Shown here in pieces: positions 15,374 to 44,778 of a stretch of 64,000 bases of DNA. A program made the translations under genes and the position numbers. Origin of the DNA: Curtobacterium sp. MCPF17_052 (GTDB taxonomy: Bacteria > Actinomycetota > Actinomycetes > Actinomycetales > Microbacteriaceae); contig NZ_QKSD01000006.1 of NCBI RefSeq assembly GCF_003234085.1, positions 1 to 64,000 on the forward strand. Reading direction: 5' to 3'. A model generated the notes under the pieces. It had not been told where the DNA came from and made no database searches. It saw only the letters and a list, made by a program, of their open reading frames with translations. Position 1 is the first letter of the stretch. Each line of letters opens with the position of its first letter.

Positions 15374-16039
15374 ATGACTCCACAAGAGCCTGGCAGCCTG
15401 TCCCCATCGGCACGGCCTGCCCGCCGCTGGCGCGTCGGTCAGGAACCGGTGACGGGGGCCCAGTCTCCACCCGAGGTCACCGGCCCACCCGTCACCGTGT
15501 CCATCACCCGCCTCGTCGAACCGGAGCGCATCCCCGAGGTCACGCTGTGGGTGCAGTCGGGCGTGAACCTGGCCAACCGGTACCCGGGGTTCCTCGGCTC
15601 GGGGTGGGTCCGTTCCAGCGCACGGTCGCGGGAGTGGCACATGCTCTACCGGTTCGCGGACCACGACTCCCTGTCCACGTGGGAGGTCTCGGACGACCGC
15701 CTGCGCTGGCTGGACCTCGGTCGGGACCTGGTCGTCGAGTCCCGCGTCGAGAAGCGCACCGGCATCGAGGGGTGGTTCGACGTGCCGCAGGACGCCCCGG
15801 CGTCGAGCGCGCCGCCGCGGTGGAAGCAGGCCGTCAGCATCTGGCTCGGGTTCTTCCCGGTCAACCTGGTGTTCACGGTCCTGGTCGGGTGGCTGCTGCC
15901 GTCGTTCGCGGGCCTGGCGGCGCTGCCCAGGGTGCTCGTCACGACGCTGGTGCTCACACCGGTCATGACGTTCTGGGTGCTGCCCTTCGTGACGAAGCTC
16001 ATCCGCCCCTGGCTGCTGGCCCCGCCCCGCCGCTCCTGA
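15374..16039 (+). CDS. Antibiotic-biosynthesis-monooxygenase-like membrane protein
   Basis: A 221-residue protein with a dimeric alpha/beta-barrel (ABM) domain at about residues 38-120, containing VSITRLVEPERIPEVTLWV and a WHMLYRFADHDSLSTW strand-helix motif, followed by two transmembrane segments (about 150-172 and 185-205). This ABM-plus-two-TM layout recurs in actinobacteria and is annotated as a quinol-monooxygenase-like protein, though no catalytic activity is proven for it. It is divergent from the DUF6328 gene. Confidence 0.75.
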   Translation: MTPQEPGSLSPSARPARRWRVGQEPVTGAQSPPEVTGPPVTVSITRLVEPERIPEVTLWVQSGVNLANRYPGFLGSGWVRSSARSREWHMLYRFADHDSLSTWEVSDDRLRWLDLGRDLVVESRVEKRTGIEGWFDVPQDAPASSAPPRWKQAVSIWLGFFPVNLVFTVLVGWLLPSFAGLAALPRVLVTTLVLTPVMTFWVLPFVTKLIRPWLLAPPRRS

Positions 16040-16573
16040 TCGCGGAACACAACGTCGGCGGCTGCCCACAACTGAGTACCGCTGTGAGGAGGCGCCGACA
16101 TTGCGTTCCGCGGGGGTGGCGTCTCGCGGGGGCACCGGGCCAGCGGGCCGCGCCGGAAGCGGCAGCGCGGGTGGCGAGCGGGGCGGAGGTGGCGTCGTGG
16201 GTCTGCCGGAGTGCGGCCCAGCCCGCGGTCACGTCGATCGACTCCGGGTCTTCGATCGGTGCGGCGAGCACGTGCTGCGCCCAGGGCACGGCGTCTCCGG
16301 GCAGCCGCAGCTCCGGCGGGAACGCGCCGGTGTCCGCGGTCGAGGTCCGGGTGTGCGCGGCGGCATTGCTCGCCCGGTCCGGGGACCGCAGCGACATGAA
16401 GGCGACGTGGCGCGGCGGGGTGCCCGCGCTGATCGTGGTCGCCGCCGCCCAGCAACCGTGGTGCACCGTTCTGGGACGGTGGTCGATGTGGCACGAGGAC
16501 TTGCTCAGGCGCACAAGTACTGTCTGCTCTTGTCGGACAGCAGCGGCACGCGGCTCGCGCAACGACCACTTCC
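16040..16573. other. Gene-poor stretch with decayed-looking frame
   Basis: This 534-bp stretch has no convincing intact gene. It holds the REP-like inverted repeat at 16041-16112. On the minus strand there is a frame from an ATG at 16397 whose first 80 residues look protein-like (FPPELRLPGDAVPWAQHV, PESIDVTAGWAALRQTHDA) but which then degrades into Arg/Ala-rich translation overlapping the previous gene. This may be a gene remnant; I could not name a parent family. Confidence 0.4.
16041..16112. repeat. REP-like inverted repeat, copy 1
   Basis: Arms of 20 bp at 16041-16060 and 16093-16112 match at 18 of 20 positions when one is reverse-complemented (consensus CGCGGAACRCAAYGTCGGCG), around a 32-nt centre. 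A second element with near-identical arms lies at 60217-60288, so this is a dispersed element and not a simple gene-specific terminator. Confidence 0.7.
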
Positions 16574-16834
16574 TCAGGAGCCTGCCGTCGGGCGGTTCCG
16601 TCGCCGCCGCGAGCCACGGCCAGCCGAGGTGATGATCGCGGTGATGCAGATCACCACCCCTGCCGTCAACCAGTCGCGGACTGTGCCCAGACCACCGGTG
16701 GCCGCGACGATGATCACGGCCGTCAGGACCGCAACCGGGAAGCAGGCGGCAACGACCTTCGGCAGGAACCGGCCGGCCGACCAGGCTGCTCCGAAGAACG
16801 CGGCGACACACAGTGCGATGAGGAGGTCGGTCAT
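16574..16834 (-). CDS. Small membrane protein of bacteriocin locus
   Basis: An 86-residue protein with two or three hydrophobic segments (about residues 3-20, 27-46 and 53-70) and a basic tail (RGSRRRRNR). It is the last gene of the operon accompanying the lacticin Q-like peptide. Its ATG overlaps the stop of the PH-domain gene by 4 nt. Aureocin A53 and lacticin Q loci also carry small membrane proteins (AucD/LnqD type) needed for secretion or immunity; I infer a comparable role from position and size, not from recognisable sequence identity. Confidence 0.7.
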   Translation of the reverse strand: MTDLLIALCVAAFFGAAWSAGRFLPKVVAACFPVAVLTAVIIVAATGGLGTVRDWLTAGVVICITAIITSAGRGSRRRRNRPTAGS

Positions 16835-18318
16835 CGAGGATTCCTTTCCAGAGTGAGCGGCGTCGACGAGTCCAACTCCCGACGCAGCAGAGCTGCGAGA
16901 CGAGCGGATGCGGGCCACACGGTGAGTCGAACGGTGTGCCGCCCGCGGAGTGTCACGGTCTGCGTGCCGCGCTGCCTGGAGAACCCGACCCACCGGCACA
17001 CGTCGACCGAGTCCGCCCTGACCACCCACACGGATCGGAACAGCGTCCCCCGCTGTGCGATGACCCACCGGCCGCCGGACGCACTGGTTGCTACCCGGAT
17101 GTGACCGATGTGGCTGTCTGCCGCTCGGAGCAGGAGGAACGCCGCGGCCACAGCAACCAGCGCGAGCGGAGCCAGGGTCACAGACGCGACGGTGGCGAGG
17201 AGCAAACTCCCCGCGACGGCGACCAGCACGACGGGCAGGGCTCGAGTTCGACGAGACCCGTCGACCAGATCAGCGGAAGGCAGACCGGTGAGGAAGCCGA
17301 GCATCTCGACGGCTTGCGGCATGCGGGTCAATGGCAGCAAGAGGTTCCGGGTCACGAGCCCGCTGCCTCCTCGAACGACGGCACGGAGGACGACGCGGTT
17401 CCCGAGAAGCATCAACACGGGTCTTCGGAACTCGTACGCTGCAACGTCCTCCGACACGACGACACGCTGCTCCCTCTGCGCCAGCCCCGCGGCGAAGACC
17501 AACTCACCGCTCGGACTGCACGTCACTGAGAAGCCTCGGTACCGGACCCACGCGACGGTGGACCCGTAGACCAGGCTCCCGACGGCAACGATCCCGACGG
17601 CAAGGCCCGACACCACAGGATCGAGCCGAGCGATCTCACGCACGGATGGCAACACCGTTCTGGAGAGACCGAACCAGGGCAGGATCTCGGATGCCGCGGA
17701 GTAGACGCTCGGCAGGAAGAAGACGAATGCGCCCGTGCAGACCCCGATGAGCACGAAATCGGACGGTCGGAGAGGTGGAGTCACGACCCGTCCTGGCTCG
17801 GACTCCATGATCGGCGCGACGTCGAGTACCTGTCCGGGGTCGAGCAGACCTGGGGTGGCCCGCTCCGCCCGGCTCTGACCGTGGAGCCGCACGAGGCGAG
17901 CAGCCTCGCCGGTCAGGAGGTCCTGGATCGTGACGGACGCCATCTCCGATGCCCGCAGTGTGATCCGGAGATCCGCGACACCGAAGGTGCGCTGCACCAG
18001 TGTCTGACCGACGGTCACGCTGACGACGGACCGCCACGAGAGGCGCTTCTCCTCGCGGCAGCCGAGTCCTCGGAGGACCGTGATGCCGCGCCTGTTCGCC
18101 GCGTACCGCACGGTGCACCAGCCGGAGAAGACCTGCACCAGCCGCGTGTAGCCGTAGTAGACCAAGACGACCATGAGCACCGTGTCCCAGGCAGATGGGA
18201 GCGCCGCCGTCAGCGTCACGCCGAACCCGACCACCAGCCAAGCGGATCGCATCACGATCGCGGCCCGGACGAGCAGGGAACGCGGGTGGGGACGACGAAG
18301 TGGAACACGATCAGACAT
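16831..18318 (-). CDS. Multi-bPH2-domain membrane protein, likely bacteriocin immunity
   Basis: A 495-residue YdbT-like protein. Membrane segments (about 20-50, 185-205, 235-255 and 345-375) alternate with bacterial PH (bPH2) domains. The first has VQVFSGWCTVRYAANRRGI and QTLVQRTFGVADLRITL, the second the YRGFSVTCSPSGELVFAAG stretch, the third RGTLFRSVWVVRADSV. YdbS/YdbT-type bPH2 proteins next to leaderless bacteriocins (AucB/AucC, LnqB/LnqC) provide self-immunity or aid secretion. The ATG start overlaps the preceding single-domain PH gene by 8 nt, as for a heteromeric pair. Domain call is good; immunity is inferred from context. Confidence 0.85.
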   Translation of the reverse strand: MSDRVPLRRPHPRSLLVRAAIVMRSAWLVVGFGVTLTAALPSAWDTVLMVVLVYYGYTRLVQVFSGWCTVRYAANRRGITVLRGLGCREEKRLSWRSVVSVTVGQTLVQRTFGVADLRITLRASEMASVTIQDLLTGEAARLVRLHGQSRAERATPGLLDPGQVLDVAPIMESEPGRVVTPPLRPSDFVLIGVCTGAFVFFLPSVYSAASEILPWFGLSRTVLPSVREIARLDPVVSGLAVGIVAVGSLVYGSTVAWVRYRGFSVTCSPSGELVFAAGLAQREQRVVVSEDVAAYEFRRPVLMLLGNRVVLRAVVRGGSGLVTRNLLLPLTRMPQAVEMLGFLTGLPSADLVDGSRRTRALPVVLVAVAGSLLLATVASVTLAPLALVAVAAAFLLLRAADSHIGHIRVATSASGGRWVIAQRGTLFRSVWVVRADSVDVCRWVGFSRQRGTQTVTLRGRHTVRLTVWPASARLAALLRRELDSSTPLTLERNPR

Positions 18319-18808
18319 CGTCAGCCCCGAGTTGCATCAGGCGCTCGACGTCCATGTCCGACATGGGCAGGAGCGAGACTTCCCGCGCTGGGGTGAACAG
18401 CACGCACTTCGCGACGCAGAGGCGCTGCAGGAGCGGACCCGCTTGACGGCGGACCAGCGTGATCTTGGATCCGGGGATGTGATCCACTGAGCGGAACACT
18501 GCTCCCCGGTACACGAGCACGCCCCCCGGAACGATCTCGACACGGAAGTTACGGACTGCGACCGGGATGACGAGCACAGACTCGATGACCGCGCTGAGCA
18601 GAGCAAGTGCAGCCACCACCCAGCAACACGTTCGCCACGCCCCGGATGCCCAGACCGTGCAGAGGATCGCTCCTCCGGCGACGATGATGCCTCCCGCCCA
18701 GGCTTCGATCCGACCGACCATCCTGGCTGCGATCTCCGCCGCTCGCAGCGACTCACGGGCCTCGAAACCTCCGCGCCGTTCACCGCCGGCGGTTCGATGT
18801 CGCGTCAC
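18311..18808 (-). CDS. Single bPH2-domain membrane protein, likely immunity
   Basis: A 165-residue YdbS-like protein. Two transmembrane segments (about residues 35-55 and 62-82) are followed by one bPH2 domain beginning RNFRVEIVPGGVLVYRGAVF and containing ITLVRRQAGPLLQRLCVAK. It starts with GTG inside the 3' end of the ABC ATPase gene (29-nt overlap) and overlaps the larger PH gene by 8 nt. In characterised aureocin A53-type loci, a YdbS-like and a YdbT-like protein are encoded side by side, exactly this arrangement. I infer that the two together protect the producer membrane from the 53-residue peptide. Confidence 0.85.
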   Translation of the reverse strand: MTRHRTAGGERRGGFEARESLRAAEIAARMVGRIEAWAGGIIVAGGAILCTVWASGAWRTCCWVVAALALLSAVIESVLVIPVAVRNFRVEIVPGGVLVYRGAVFRSVDHIPGSKITLVRRQAGPLLQRLCVAKCVLFTPAREVSLLPMSDMDVERLMQLGADDV

Positions 18809-19658
18809 GGTACTGCTCTTCGAGGGTCTGGGCTTCGGAGACGAGGTGCGACAGCACCGCCCCGGAGGACAACGCCGTCCGGAACACCCGCGCTGGCTCC
18901 ATCCCTCGCACCAGGATCGAACTGTCGGCGGTGACGACCACGTCGGCTCCGGCTGCCGTCAAGGCGCGGACGAGTTCCCCAGCCCGCGACTCCGCGCGGA
19001 GCCGGACCGAGTTCCGCGCCGGACTCCGGCCGTCGAGTGGGGACAGAGAACCGTTCGTCAGGAGCACCACGCGGGTGGCGATCCGCTCCATCTCAGCCAT
19101 GAGGTGCGAGGAGAGCAGCACGGCTCGTCCGGAACTGGCGAAGCCCCGGAGGAGTTCGCGTATCCAGAGCACCCCGTCGGGATCGAGACCGTTGAGCGGC
19201 TCGTCCAGCACCAGGACGTCCGGCTCATCGACCAGCGCCAGGGCGAGCGCGAGCCGCTGACGCATCCCGAGCGAGAGGTGCTTCACGCATCGGCGCTCCG
19301 CATCGCTGAGCCCGACGGTTGCCAGCGCCGCCTGCACAGAACCGCGACGTACTCGACCGCGGGAGTACAGGTGTGCGATCACCAGGTGTTGACGACACGT
19401 GAGCCTGTCGTCAAGCCACGCCGGGTCGAGGAGCGCGCCGATCCGCAGAGGACCGTCCGTGGCATCTCCGAATTCGACGACGCCAGCTTGCGCCGTGTCG
19501 ATACCAGCGACGATCCGGAGGAGGGTGCTCTTCCCGGAGCCATTCGCGCCGAGCAGTCCAAGTACCTCGCCAGGGCGGACTTCGAGGTCGAGGTCCGTGA
19601 GCACCTGGTGCCCCCCGAACCCTTGACGGACGCCGATGAGTCGGACGATGGGGTTCAT
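18780..19658 (-). CDS. ABC transporter ATP-binding protein, bacteriocin locus
   Basis: A 292-residue ATPase with Walker A GANGSGKS (37-44), signature LSLGMRQRL, Walker B VLVLDEPLNGLDP and a switch His in LLSSHLMAEME. It resembles BcrA/CcmA-type subunits that work with small permeases in peptide-antibiotic export and resistance (LnqF/LnqE, AucE-G). The frame runs far upstream, but the ATG at 19658 begins the family's MNPIVRLIGVRQGFGG N-terminus and overlaps the permease stop by 4 nt. It probably drives secretion of the peptide and/or clears it from the membrane. Confidence 0.92.
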   Translation of the reverse strand: MNPIVRLIGVRQGFGGHQVLTDLDLEVRPGEVLGLLGANGSGKSTLLRIVAGIDTAQAGVVEFGDATDGPLRIGALLDPAWLDDRLTCRQHLVIAHLYSRGRVRRGSVQAALATVGLSDAERRCVKHLSLGMRQRLALALALVDEPDVLVLDEPLNGLDPDGVLWIRELLRGFASSGRAVLLSSHLMAEMERIATRVVLLTNGSLSPLDGRSPARNSVRLRAESRAGELVRALTAAGADVVVTADSSILVRGMEPARVFRTALSSGAVLSHLVSEAQTLEEQYRDATSNRRR

Positions 19659-20410
19659 CGGATGCCCCACCGTCGGATACTGACCAGACCGGCGATGAGG
19701 AGAGCGGTGTCCAGTCCCACGAATCGGAGGACGGCGGTCCCTTGCGTCGAGGGCTCCAACAGCGCAGCAGTGAGCGTCACCGGCGCGAACTGCAGGACCG
19801 AGACGCTGATACTCGGTGCCCATATCCCAGCGATCGCCACGAGGAGCGGCAGCGCCCAGACGACGGCCAAGTAGACGAACACTGCGGGGACGGGCGATCG
19901 CATGAGCATGCCGATCCCGGCGCCGAGCAAGACGAACAGGAGATGCAGGGCCGGGAGCGCCAGCCACGCAAGCGGCGATGCACGCAGGACGTCGTCTGTG
20001 CGAGAGGCCGCGAGCGGCACGAGCAACATCACCACGGCGAGCCCTGTGAGCACTCCTGCGGTGGCCAGCACCGCGGTCTTCGCGACGAAGACGAGCGTGC
20101 GATCGTTCATCTGCAGGAGTGTCAGCGCGAACTGACGGGATGACAGATCAGCCGCGGTGAAGAGCGCTGCCGCGAGTCCCAGGAAGAACGGGCTGACCTC
20201 TGCGCCCGACACAGCTGCTCGCACGACCGTCGCCGATGCCGCGGCCGGTGCGAGGACGAGGACCTGCCCCGCGCCGAGTGCGAGCGCTCCCAGGACGGCG
20301 ATCGCCAGCAGAGCCATCTGGGAACGCAGGCTCACGAGCCGGTACCCCTCGCCTCGCCACGATCGCGACCATTTGGATCTGGTCGCCGCGTCGGTCGCCC
20401 GCCGTGTCAT
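19655..20410 (-). CDS. ABC permease, bacteriocin locus
   Basis: A 251-residue integral membrane protein with about six transmembrane segments (for example MALLAIAVLGALALGAGQVLVL, VLATAGVLTGLAVVMLLVPL, LLIAGLVSIRRWGIR at the end). The coding frame continues upstream of 20410 but there becomes charged and implausible. The ATG at 20410 has GAGGGTGG about 7 nt upstream, so it is chosen. It is the first gene of the minus-strand operon and diverges from the peptide gene across a 229-bp gap. Pairs with the ATPase at 18780-19658. Confidence 0.88.
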   Translation of the reverse strand: MTRRATDAATRSKWSRSWRGEGYRLVSLRSQMALLAIAVLGALALGAGQVLVLAPAAASATVVRAAVSGAEVSPFFLGLAAALFTAADLSSRQFALTLLQMNDRTLVFVAKTAVLATAGVLTGLAVVMLLVPLAASRTDDVLRASPLAWLALPALHLLFVLLGAGIGMLMRSPVPAVFVYLAVVWALPLLVAIAGIWAPSISVSVLQFAPVTLTAALLEPSTQGTAVLRFVGLDTALLIAGLVSIRRWGIR

Positions 20411-20639
20411 CGTACCCACCCTCGAATTCCGGTCTCCGCCGCCCGGGAGATCCGGGATGGACTCAACGTAGCCGATTTCCCGCGACGTGTATTGCTCACG
20501 CCACCTATCAGAATCCTGTATTTGACTTCGAGCGCGCCGACCTGCCACGGTCATGCTCACCGCACCGACTGCGGTCGGGGAGACGCGTGCACGCGGGGAC
20601 CCGGATGAAGCGAAAAACGAATCGAAGGGGGGCACAGCC
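20411..20639. promoter_or_regulatory. Divergent control region of bacteriocin locus
   Basis: A 229-bp gap between the minus-strand export/immunity operon and the plus-strand peptide gene. It is visibly more AT-rich than its surroundings (for example 20480-20525 and 20608-20625). It must contain both promoters, but no pair of -35/-10 boxes is close enough to consensus for me to name one. No regulator gene is present in the locus. Confidence 0.5.
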
Positions 20640-20801
20640 ATGGCTGTGTTCGCACGGATCCTCCAGCTGCTGGCGAGGTACGGAGCGCGGGCCGTCGCAT
20701 GGGCGAAGGCCCACGTCCAGCAGGTCCTGAACTGGATCAACATCGGACAGGCGATCGACTGGATCGTGTCGAAGATCAAGCAGATCCTCGGCATCCGCTA
20801 G
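20640..20801 (+). CDS. Leaderless class IId bacteriocin, lacticin Q/aureocin A53-like
   Basis: A 53-residue cationic peptide: seven Lys/Arg against one Asp, Trp at 21, 32 and 41, no Cys, no signal or double-Gly leader. It starts MAVFARILQLLARYG; its C-terminal residues 36-52 (GQAIDWIVSKIKQILGI) differ at only one position from lacticin Q as I remember that sequence. Over all 53 residues I count 33 identities with no gaps. These peptides are made without leader or modification and permeabilise target membranes, folding as a four-helix saposin-like bundle. The ATG has AAGGGGGG 6 nt upstream. A longer in-frame start at 20553 would add 29 hydrophilic residues without family support. Strong terminator 31 nt after the stop. 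Confidence 0.93.
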   Translation: MAVFARILQLLARYGARAVAWAKAHVQQVLNWINIGQAIDWIVSKIKQILGIR

Positions 20802-20832
20802 CAGGACGGCGAGGCCCGCCTGTTGCGGAGCC

Positions 20833-20874
20833 GGCCAGCGCCTGCGTTCGGGGAACCGAGCGCAGGCGCTGGCC
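20833..20874. terminator. Strong hairpin terminator after bacteriocin gene
   Basis: Perfect 14-bp arms, GGCCAGCGCCTGCG at 20833-20846 and its reverse complement at 20861-20874, around a 14-nt loop. It lies between the bacteriocin gene and the convergent Ppx/GppA gene, so it can end transcription from both sides. Confidence 0.8.
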
Positions 20875-44219: not shown

Positions 44220-44705
44220 ATGGGGGCACGCAGCGCGCACGTCATCACCGCACTCGTCATCGGCACCGTCGGGGTGGTGACGCTCAGCGGGTGCACGGCC
44301 GACGAACCAGCACCGACGAAGACCGTGACCGTCAGCGCGACGCCCCGGGCGCTGCCCCCGGGCGACACCGACGTCAGCGCCGCAGCGGTGTGCGGGCAGG
44401 TGAGCGCCGTCGAGACCATCACGTTCAACGCCGCCGACGCACACCAGCGCGGTGAGCTCGGGGACGAGGCGTACCGGTCCCGACTCGACGCCGCGCGCTT
44501 CGTCTACGAACGGCTCCCGTCCGTCGGCGACGTCGGCACGTCGGTCGGCGCACTGCAGACGTGGCTGACAGACCACCCGGCCACCGATTCGGCGCTCGCG
44601 CTCGACCCGGACGACGTCGGGCTGCAGGACGCCGTCGCGTCGGTCGGGGCGGCCTGCGGCGCGGCCGGGTCGCCGGTCGCCATCTCGGCGGCGTCCGGCG
44701 GCTGA
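44220..44705 (+). CDS. Lipoprotein of unknown function
   Basis: A 161-residue secreted lipoprotein: signal MGARSAHVITALVIGTVGVV followed by lipobox TLSGC (Cys 25). A Thr/Pro linker (APTKTVTVSATPRALPPGD) is followed by a helical domain with two Cys (near 58 and 151) that could form a disulfide. No family recognised. Single gene, divergent from the lacI control region. Confidence 0.78.
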   Translation: MGARSAHVITALVIGTVGVVTLSGCTADEPAPTKTVTVSATPRALPPGDTDVSAAAVCGQVSAVETITFNAADAHQRGELGDEAYRSRLDAARFVYERLPSVGDVGTSVGALQTWLTDHPATDSALALDPDDVGLQDAVASVGAACGAAGSPVAISAASGG

Positions 44706-44778
44706 CGGGAGCGCGGTCCCTCGCGCCGACCGACCGATCACCGCACCGGACCTGCCGCTGCGATGCCCGTCCGCCGGG

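Follow-up and report, generated by a model that had tools for sequence, protein, structure and literature searches.

The locus lies in the window, the whole 64,000-nucleotide stretch of Curtobacterium sp. MCPF17_052 DNA that was analysed. It comprises a short peptide gene on the plus strand and five genes on the minus strand, all six open reading frames being intact. Coordinates are collected in Table 1.

Table 1. Predicted features of the bacteriocin locus in window coordinates
Feature	Coordinates	Strand	Remarks
Small hydrophobic membrane protein with basic C-terminus, candidate immunity protein	16574..16834	-	86 aa; conserved in four producers
YdbT-like large bPH2 membrane protein	16831..18318	-	495 aa; one PF03703 match, 4.5e-9
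YdbS-like small bPH2 membrane protein	18311..18808	-	165 aa, GTG start; PF03703 22.1 bits, cut-off 22
ABC transporter ATPase	18780..19658	-	PF00005 2.2e-26
Membrane protein, putative permease partner of the ATPase, presumably ABC-2-like	19655..20410	-	adjoins the ATPase in four producers
Divergent intergenic region	20411..20639	.	ATTTGAC block, GTGCACGCGG and ribosome-binding site common to four sequences (four-genome alignment)
Leaderless bacteriocin structural gene	20640..20801	+	53 aa; PF11758 and NF033881 matches
Inverted repeat 3′ of the peptide gene, likely terminator	20833..20874	+	self-match 42 bases, 86%

By its match to two curated models the peptide is a member of the aureocin A53/lacticin Q family. 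It reaches 67.2 bits against PF11758 (cut-off 25) and 77.1 bits against NF033881 (cut-off 27), so that the search proposed in the preliminary description exceeds both thresholds by far. Recomputation also confirms the length, the 33 ungapped identities to lacticin Q (62% of 53 residues), the Trp residues at 21, 32 and 41 and the divergence of residues 20-35, where 6 of 16 positions are identical. Trp32 and Trp41 are invariant across 12 aligned peptides, 7 of which are Curtobacterium-like. The lacticin Q structure 2n8p is matched over 53 of 53 residues (E 1.5e-18), and the identity to this solved protein suggests a fold as a saposin-like bundle of helices. The peptide contains 7 K/R and 1 D/E (pI 11.6), with a calculated mass of about 6041 Da in the N-formylated form. 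The match is not a chance one: a family HMM built without the window peptide and seven Curtobacterium-like peptides was run on 969 six-frame segments from the window and selects exactly one (E 3.8e-24), and from 20 triplet-shuffled windows it returns nothing at E<=10. Identity to the peptides of three other producers is 98, 87 and 89%, a smaller divergence than in the five operon proteins, and dN/dS is 0.07-0.24 in all six pairs from the four genomes.

As far as the aligned Curtobacterium loci indicate, the peptide is without a conserved leader. In the window the reading frame extends 38 codons upstream without a stop and contains an ATG at 20553, 29 codons ahead of the peptide start, from which a longer product of 82 aa, and hence a leader, would result; a GTG in locus L005 and a TTG in L006 also lie 29 codons upstream. 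This longer product is nevertheless extremely unlikely. The protein encoded by the upstream stretch is not conserved in L006 and L007, save for a few final codons that overlie the ribosome-binding site, and L007 has a stop 18 codons ahead of the peptide start. The upstream alignment requires indels whose lengths are not divisible by three, in contrast to the gap-free alignment of the 53 peptide codons. L005 is uninformative here because it is too similar to the window, and a leader peptide was dismissed on the evidence of L006 and L007.

A sigma-70 promoter scan of the divergent intergenic region gave no match and a folding test of it nothing significant. A structured 5′ leader RNA was rejected (fold z -0.67; no Rfam match at gathering scores). 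The inverted repeat downstream of the peptide gene carries no T run, and its end is the end coordinate of the reported locus. It is likely the terminator of the peptide gene. A terminator scan was empty, this repeat included. Visual inspection of the four-genome alignment shows comparable inverted repeats in L005 and L007.

The minus-strand genes overlap by 4, 29, 8 and 4 nt from the permease to the small membrane gene, in agreement with the earlier claim of accessory genes packed with 4-29 nt overlaps and divergent from the peptide. Of the lacticin Q-type accessory set proposed at the same time, the bPH2 pair, the ABC ATPase and the small membrane protein stand, and the permease is so named by its position. 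Its protein has no Pfam match above cut-off and none in NCBIfam. Foldseek with a low-confidence model of it (pLDDT 58.5, alignment of only 4 sequences) gives NosY as the best match (E 0.61) and PmtD as the second (E 0.76), neither significant. The nearest NCBIfam model of the ATPase is the lantibiotic-protection model TIGR03740 (3e-44; its 151 bits fall short of the cut-off, 310), and the PmtC model is matched below its own cut-off. In a pair of the YdbS/YdbT type the small protein has a single bPH2 domain and its large neighbour has three, together with six TM segments. Pfam counts one such domain in each of the two proteins, that of the YdbS-like protein scoring at the cut-off. The model of the YdbT-like protein, of low confidence (pLDDT 55.6, 3-sequence alignment), has three strand-rich blocks between helical blocks. 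Its profile matches the large PH proteins of plasmid pKW4 and of the Parageobacillus thermoglucosidasius plasmid; a PDB sequence search with this protein returned a single irrelevant match (E 0.3). A Pfam scan of the locus proteins found no regulator and no TetR protein of the LnqR type.

The peptide occurs in 4 of 60 Curtobacterium genomes, with one match per genome, and in all four it is accompanied by the same set of five divergently oriented genes. The preliminary description had regarded accessory genes elsewhere without such a peptide as contrary evidence. A near-full-length YdbT-like protein and a close permease are confined to the four producers among the 60 genomes, and the close ATPase likewise among six genomes checked, G007 and G020 having only a 39% paralogue. 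The small membrane gene departs from this, with one orphan. The window's own genome is 76.6% complete. In C. salicis WW7 (L005), whose peptide differs from that of the window at one residue, the YdbT-like gene is read in two frames, so this copy may be defective or contain a sequencing error. The island is flanked by a membrane-protein gene and ppx, and in 17 of the 30 loci examined this interval is empty. An island bounded by repeats was dismissed (best direct-repeat match in the window 16 bp, E 0.01), as was a phage-borne copy: 43 viral-contig stretches fit the patterns and none codes for a relative. The close relative G007 lacks the peptide, permease, close ATPase and YdbT-like genes and keeps the small membrane gene; another close relative, G020, lacks all five. 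One chromosomal site is found in three states, with the whole module (window genome, C. salicis), the small membrane gene only (G007) or nothing of it (G020), which allows a natural comparison for asking how a producer survives a peptide active on translation. The neighbouring cupin-domain gene is complete in G020 and truncated in the window. A DUF2089 regulator, present in four plasmid clusters, is absent from six Curtobacterium genomes.

Lacticin Q/Z of Lactococcus lactis (lnqQ with lnqBCDEF) shares with the Curtobacterium peptide its length and Trp positions and a near-identical C-terminus, and the accessory types resemble those in descriptions of the lnq genes (PMC8657885, PMC10311245). 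The Curtobacterium locus differs in Lys instead of Trp at 23, in residues 20-35, in its high-GC host, in its divergent accessory genes and in having no LnqR-type TetR among the scanned locus proteins. The cluster on plasmid pKW4 of Corynebacterium jeikeium K411 (L023) is likewise actinobacterial; PMC6795431 mentions its peptide too. Its peptide and ATPase are both 41% identical, its YdbT-like and small membrane proteins match by profile, and the order permease-ATPase-YdbS-YdbT is the same. In contrast, this cluster is plasmid-borne, its accessory genes run in the same direction as the peptide gene, the permease is preceded by the small membrane gene and a DUF2089 HTH gene, and the peptide is placed elsewhere in the peptide tree. 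The geobacillin 6 cluster of P. thermoglucosidasius (geo6ABCDEF) is tied to record L024 by length, the six-gene stretch there measuring 5,709 bases as published (PMC10311245). It shares divergent YdbS, YdbT and ABC-type genes, but its peptide has 48 aa (45% identity over 51 residues), the PH genes are closest to the peptide, two permease-type genes are at the far end and a DUF2089 gene is nearby. Arcanocin and arachnicin are actinobacterial aureocin A53-like peptides of other genera, known from MAGs and reported as active in synthetic form. They have 50-54% and 38% identity, respectively, to lacticin Q/Z (PMC11580447), as against 62% to lacticin Q for the Curtobacterium peptide.

The proposal of a leaderless aureocin A53/lacticin Q-type locus in an actinobacterium is thus borne out by the family models and the operon. 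The suggestion that host or layout marks a new lineage is not. A survey published in 2024 lists 97 aureocin A53-like peptides in Actinomycetota, with Curtobacterium singletons (PMC11580447), and this and pKW4 contradict a first actinobacterial example. A novel divergent layout is contradicted by an Arachnia cluster, described with transport and regulatory genes opposed to the core peptide (PMC11580447), and by Firmicute plasmid records of P. thermoglucosidasius and of L. plantarum, in the latter as regards the PH gene. The Curtobacterium locus is a well-conserved new example and not a new type of system. What remains new is a Curtobacterium peptide group nearer to lacticin Q/Z than to the Corynebacterium peptides. 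It is also nearer to lacticin Q than the surveyed actinobacterial peptides with a stated identity to lacticin Q or Z (38-54%; PMC11580447). The peptide tree has 53 columns; of its 37 inner branches 11 are starred and 15 open, and so only its broad grouping is used.

The best explanation, with a probability of about 0.9, is that the Curtobacterium chromosome carries a complete locus for a single leaderless bacteriocin of aureocin A53/lacticin Q type. The gene set very probably serves to produce and export an antibacterial peptide of 53 residues and to protect the cell from it; activity, export and immunity are what we infer. The peptide would be active on leaving the ribosome, the PH-domain pair together with the ABC pair would export it and expel it from the membrane, and the small membrane protein would help to shield the producer. 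Outside the cell, a cationic, Trp-containing helical bundle may disrupt the membranes of rival Gram-positive bacteria. The PH proteins DdE and DdF are reported to be required for EntDD14 export, LnqC and LnqD being described as PH-like (PMC8657885), and LnqBCDEF to confer lacticin Q secretion and immunity, with LnqEF as the minimal immunity unit (PMC10311245). Several aureocin A53-like clusters are described as having accessory genes that lack homology to one another (PMC6249370), so analogy of gene type is not proof of function.

The family models, the lacticin Q match, the co-occurrence in 4 of 60 genomes, dN/dS well below 1 and the related pKW4 module favour this bacteriocin locus. Against it stand the weak pKW4 homology of the permease (E 0.0018, probability 15%) and of the YdbS-like protein (E 0.0006, probability 29%), a permease with neither a family nor a significant fold match, the lack of a regulator among the scanned locus proteins, and the view of the survey's authors that the Arachnia cluster, with its opposed layout, is likely non-functional (PMC11580447). 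The empty promoter scan and the split YdbT-like frame in L005 also count against it. These two would fit a silent or decaying locus, in which family membership is right and the window strain has ceased to make or export the peptide, as would the gene losses in G007 and G020 and the truncated cupin-domain neighbour. Such decay is unlikely, given six intact frames under dN/dS well below 1 and a peptide less diverged than the operon proteins. It is less probable still that the peptide acts chiefly as a cytolysin or signal of the phenol-soluble-modulin kind, with the ABC genes as a Pmt-like exporter, rather than as an antibacterial agent. The matches to PmtC and PmtD that would favour this are below cut-off and not significant, respectively; both above-cut-off peptide models are bacteriocin families, and leaderless bacteriocin clusters are reported commonly to carry PH-domain proteins (PMC11580447, PMC8657885).

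The small membrane protein matches a pKW4 protein by profile (L023 7744-8028, probability 94.5%), and this homologue together with the intact orphan gene in peptide-less G007 makes it a candidate immunity protein. The small membrane proteins adjoining DUF2089 in P. thermoglucosidasius and L. plantarum do not match it (probability 4%). It might, as a tentative suggestion, be a dedicated immunity factor of actinobacterial PH-type modules, common to Curtobacterium and Corynebacterium and retained as an orphan by non-producers (G007) beside producers. If so, it would be the aureocin A53-type counterpart of DdD, which reportedly has recently been shown to protect enterocin DD14 producers.

The 53-residue peptide belongs to the aureocin A53 family, as the preliminary description had proposed. 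Its open reading frame is intact, is preceded by AAGGGGGG, and encodes a product scoring 67.2 bits against Pfam Bacteriocin_IIi (cut-off 25) and 77.1 bits against NCBIfam aureocin_A53 (cut-off 27). Lacticin Q (2n8p) is the top solved-structure match, aligned end to end (E 1.5e-18), followed by epidermicin and aureocin A53. Direct counting confirms the 33 identities to lacticin Q over 53 residues, and the divergence noticed in residues 20-35 is borne out by 6/16 identities there. To control for chance, the window peptide and seven Curtobacterium-like rows were excluded from an HMM, which then picks the peptide segment alone among 969 window segments and finds zero matches in 20 triplet-shuffled windows.

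The peptide reading frame extends open upstream of 20640, and open upstream frames are common at such GC. The codon 29 positions upstream of the start is ATG in the window, GTG in Curtobacterium salicis WW7 (L005) and TTG in Curtobacterium sp. VKM Ac-1393 (L006), where the residues encoded upstream are unrelated to those of the window; in Microbacteriaceae bacterium PS02333 (L007) the frame ends at a stop 18 codons before the peptide start. Upstream agreement is confined to a few codons next to the start, where the ribosome-binding site lies, and the peptide is predicted from these comparisons to have no leader. The divergent intergenic region of all four sequences shares an ATTTGAC block, GTGCACGCGG and, by eye, a CCGC-type short inverted repeat. 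A regulatory role for these conserved blocks is a guess; a sigma-70 scan and a folding test of the region supported no particular element.

Features of the window, with protein identity (%) to L005, L007 and L006
Feature	Position	Strand	L005, L007, L006	Remark
Membrane-protein gene, left flank of operon	15374-16039			best Pfam match ABM, below cut-off
Imperfect palindromic repeat, ~80 bp	16034-16125			22 own-genome matches, some on both strands
Cupin-domain remnant	16132-16509			3' part and ~50-base piece near 5' end
Small membrane protein	16574-16834	-	92, 67, 54	
YdbT-like	16831-18318	-	83 (two pieces), 50, 42	
YdbS-like	18311-18808	-	90, 60, 54	54 for part of protein
ATPase	18780-19658	-	89, 67, 60	
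Permease	19655-20410	-	88, 63, 56	
Peptide ORF (intact)	20640-20801	+	98, 87, 89	53 codons
Inverted repeat 3' of peptide gene	20833-20874			
tRNA-Thr (GGT)	44640-44735			sole tRNA gene reported by ARAGORN in window

The aureocin A53 family is rare and patchy in the sampled genomes. PF11758 matches 4/60 Curtobacterium genomes, including the window's own (3.54 Mb, 31 contigs, 76.6% complete), and 0/39 genomes of the same order. Wider, mutually overlapping draws from the family (1/398), order (1/396) and phylum (1/396) each return the own genome as sole match. Of six proteins found, P0005 (89%) is named as Curtobacterium sp. PhB142.

The locus had been put forward as a candidate new lineage by virtue of its host, its layout and the divergence in residues 20-35, but it belongs to an already known kind of system. 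PMC11580447 reports 97 actinomycetotal peptides of the aureocin A53 type, with Curtobacterium named among the hosts; the actinobacterial peptides for which it states an identity to lacticin Q or Z reach 38-54%, against 62% with lacticin Q for the window peptide. Genes of these types also stand divergently in a Parageobacillus thermoglucosidasius plasmid record, where the set spans 5,709 bases, the length stated in the geobacillin 6 paper (PMC10311245). An opposed layout in Arachnia was judged likely non-functional by the authors of PMC11580447. That four Curtobacterium genomes conserve a divergent layout, and that the species producing geobacillin 6 has one too, argues against that verdict as a general rule.

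In Corynebacterium jeikeium K411, plasmid pKW4 carries a related module on one strand, with genes for the peptide, a DUF2089-HTH protein and the small membrane protein and then, in this order, for the permease, the ATPase, a YdbS-like protein (its ORF is absent from the gene table) and a YdbT-like protein. Its ATPase is 41% identical to that of the window. When profiles are compared with the Curtobacterium proteins, the small membrane protein and YdbT-like match with probabilities of 94.5% and 96.2%, the permease and YdbS-like with just 15% and 29%. According to PMC6249370, a number of aureocin A53-like clusters have accessory genes that lack homology to one another. For the small membrane protein, a protein search finds 22 relatives, of which one is named as Corynebacterium jeikeium. 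A 43-row peptide tree, whose inner branches have weak support, places the Curtobacterium peptides on the side of lacticin Q/Z, apart from those of Corynebacterium. Records from Parageobacillus, S. epidermidis and L. plantarum have DUF2089 genes annotated close to the peptide, and that of pKW4 is recognized by Pfam; 0/6 Curtobacterium genomes (four producers and the peptide-free G007 and G020) and 3/14 control genomes matched.

The five-gene set stands divergently beside the peptide in identical order in 4/4 producers. Across 60 Curtobacterium genomes, near-full-length YdbT-like and close permease matches occur only together with the peptide. YdbT-like is matched in 25 genomes, near full length in the four producers (in two pieces in C. 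salicis) and by its N-terminal part alone in the other 21 (E 4e-8 to 1e-5). The permease is matched in 10, at 54-100% in the producers and 27-31% in six others. Among six genomes examined for it, a close ATPase (60-100%) is present in the four producers, while G007 and G020 hold a 39% paralogue alone, of a kind that the producers also have. The small membrane gene is matched in five genomes, the producers and G007.

The peptide has dN/dS values of 0.07-0.24 and the operon genes of 0.16-0.41; the latter range excludes the C. salicis YdbT-like gene, whose reading is split over two frames. These frames (L005 4194-5679) meet near residue 370, reflecting either a broken gene or a sequencing error. 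Between the window and PS02333, synonymous divergence (dS) reaches 0.40 in the peptide gene and 0.57 in ppx, against 1.02-1.43 in the operon genes; GC3 stands at 91% in the peptide gene, 75-83% in the operon genes and 91-92% in the two flanking genes. This contrast fits either strong expression of the peptide, with use of preferred codons, or an operon of foreign origin.

Enterocin DD14 export is reported to require both PH-domain proteins, DdE and DdF (PMC8657885), and lacticin Q secretion and immunity come from LnqBCDEF, with LnqEF the minimal immunity unit (PMC10311245). By analogy, export and clearance of the peptide would fall to the PH pair and the ABC pair. Self-immunity to enterocin DD14 is described as requiring DdD, a membrane protein predicted to have three transmembrane segments (PMC13262744), and by the same analogy the small membrane protein is a candidate immunity factor. 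That LnqEF and not LnqB forms the minimal unit argues against the small protein acting alone, if LnqB is its counterpart. In G007 the small gene is intact in the absence of the peptide, permease, close ATPase and YdbT-like gene. A non-producer that retained an immunity gene would look like this, but so might a genome in which a deletion left the gene behind as a passenger. The G007 copy has a dS of 0.289 against the window (dN/dS 0.28), near the 0.284 of ppx, a value that agrees with vertical descent. Downstream of ppx and ahead of the orphan gene, the final 41 bases of ppx recur (L057 4870-4910, 95%), possibly as the scar of a module-removing event.

The right flank of the peptide gene is ppx, and its loci were compared in the best 30 of 55 matching genomes (60 Curtobacterium searched). 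In 17/30 the site is empty, flanking-gene matches ending 13-102 bases apart, and in 7/30 they lie 312-1397 bases apart. The remaining 6/30 lack the left flank inside the stretch: the own genome and C. salicis (island), G007 (remnant), PS02333 (contig ends), G047 and G005. The PS02333 island adjoins the same left-flank gene as in the window; in VKM Ac-1393 the island lies at another site, the peptide being at 0.74 Mb and ppx at 0.43 Mb of one contig. Since 7/30 best loci (G015 and G001, L061 and L062, among them) carry 0.3-1.4 kb of other DNA between the flanking genes, this junction may be a hotspot of gain and loss. Direct copies of the ~80-bp repeat bracket the C. salicis island (L005 3794-3878 and 8265-8343), and at this site G020 (L058) carries two copies, one full and one weaker. 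The repeat may be of a bidirectional terminator type and undergo recombination. Between the flanking membrane-protein gene and ppx, G007 (L057 5293-6252) and G020 (L058 4609-5556; Pfam Cupin_2, 2.4e-10) carry a cupin-domain gene.
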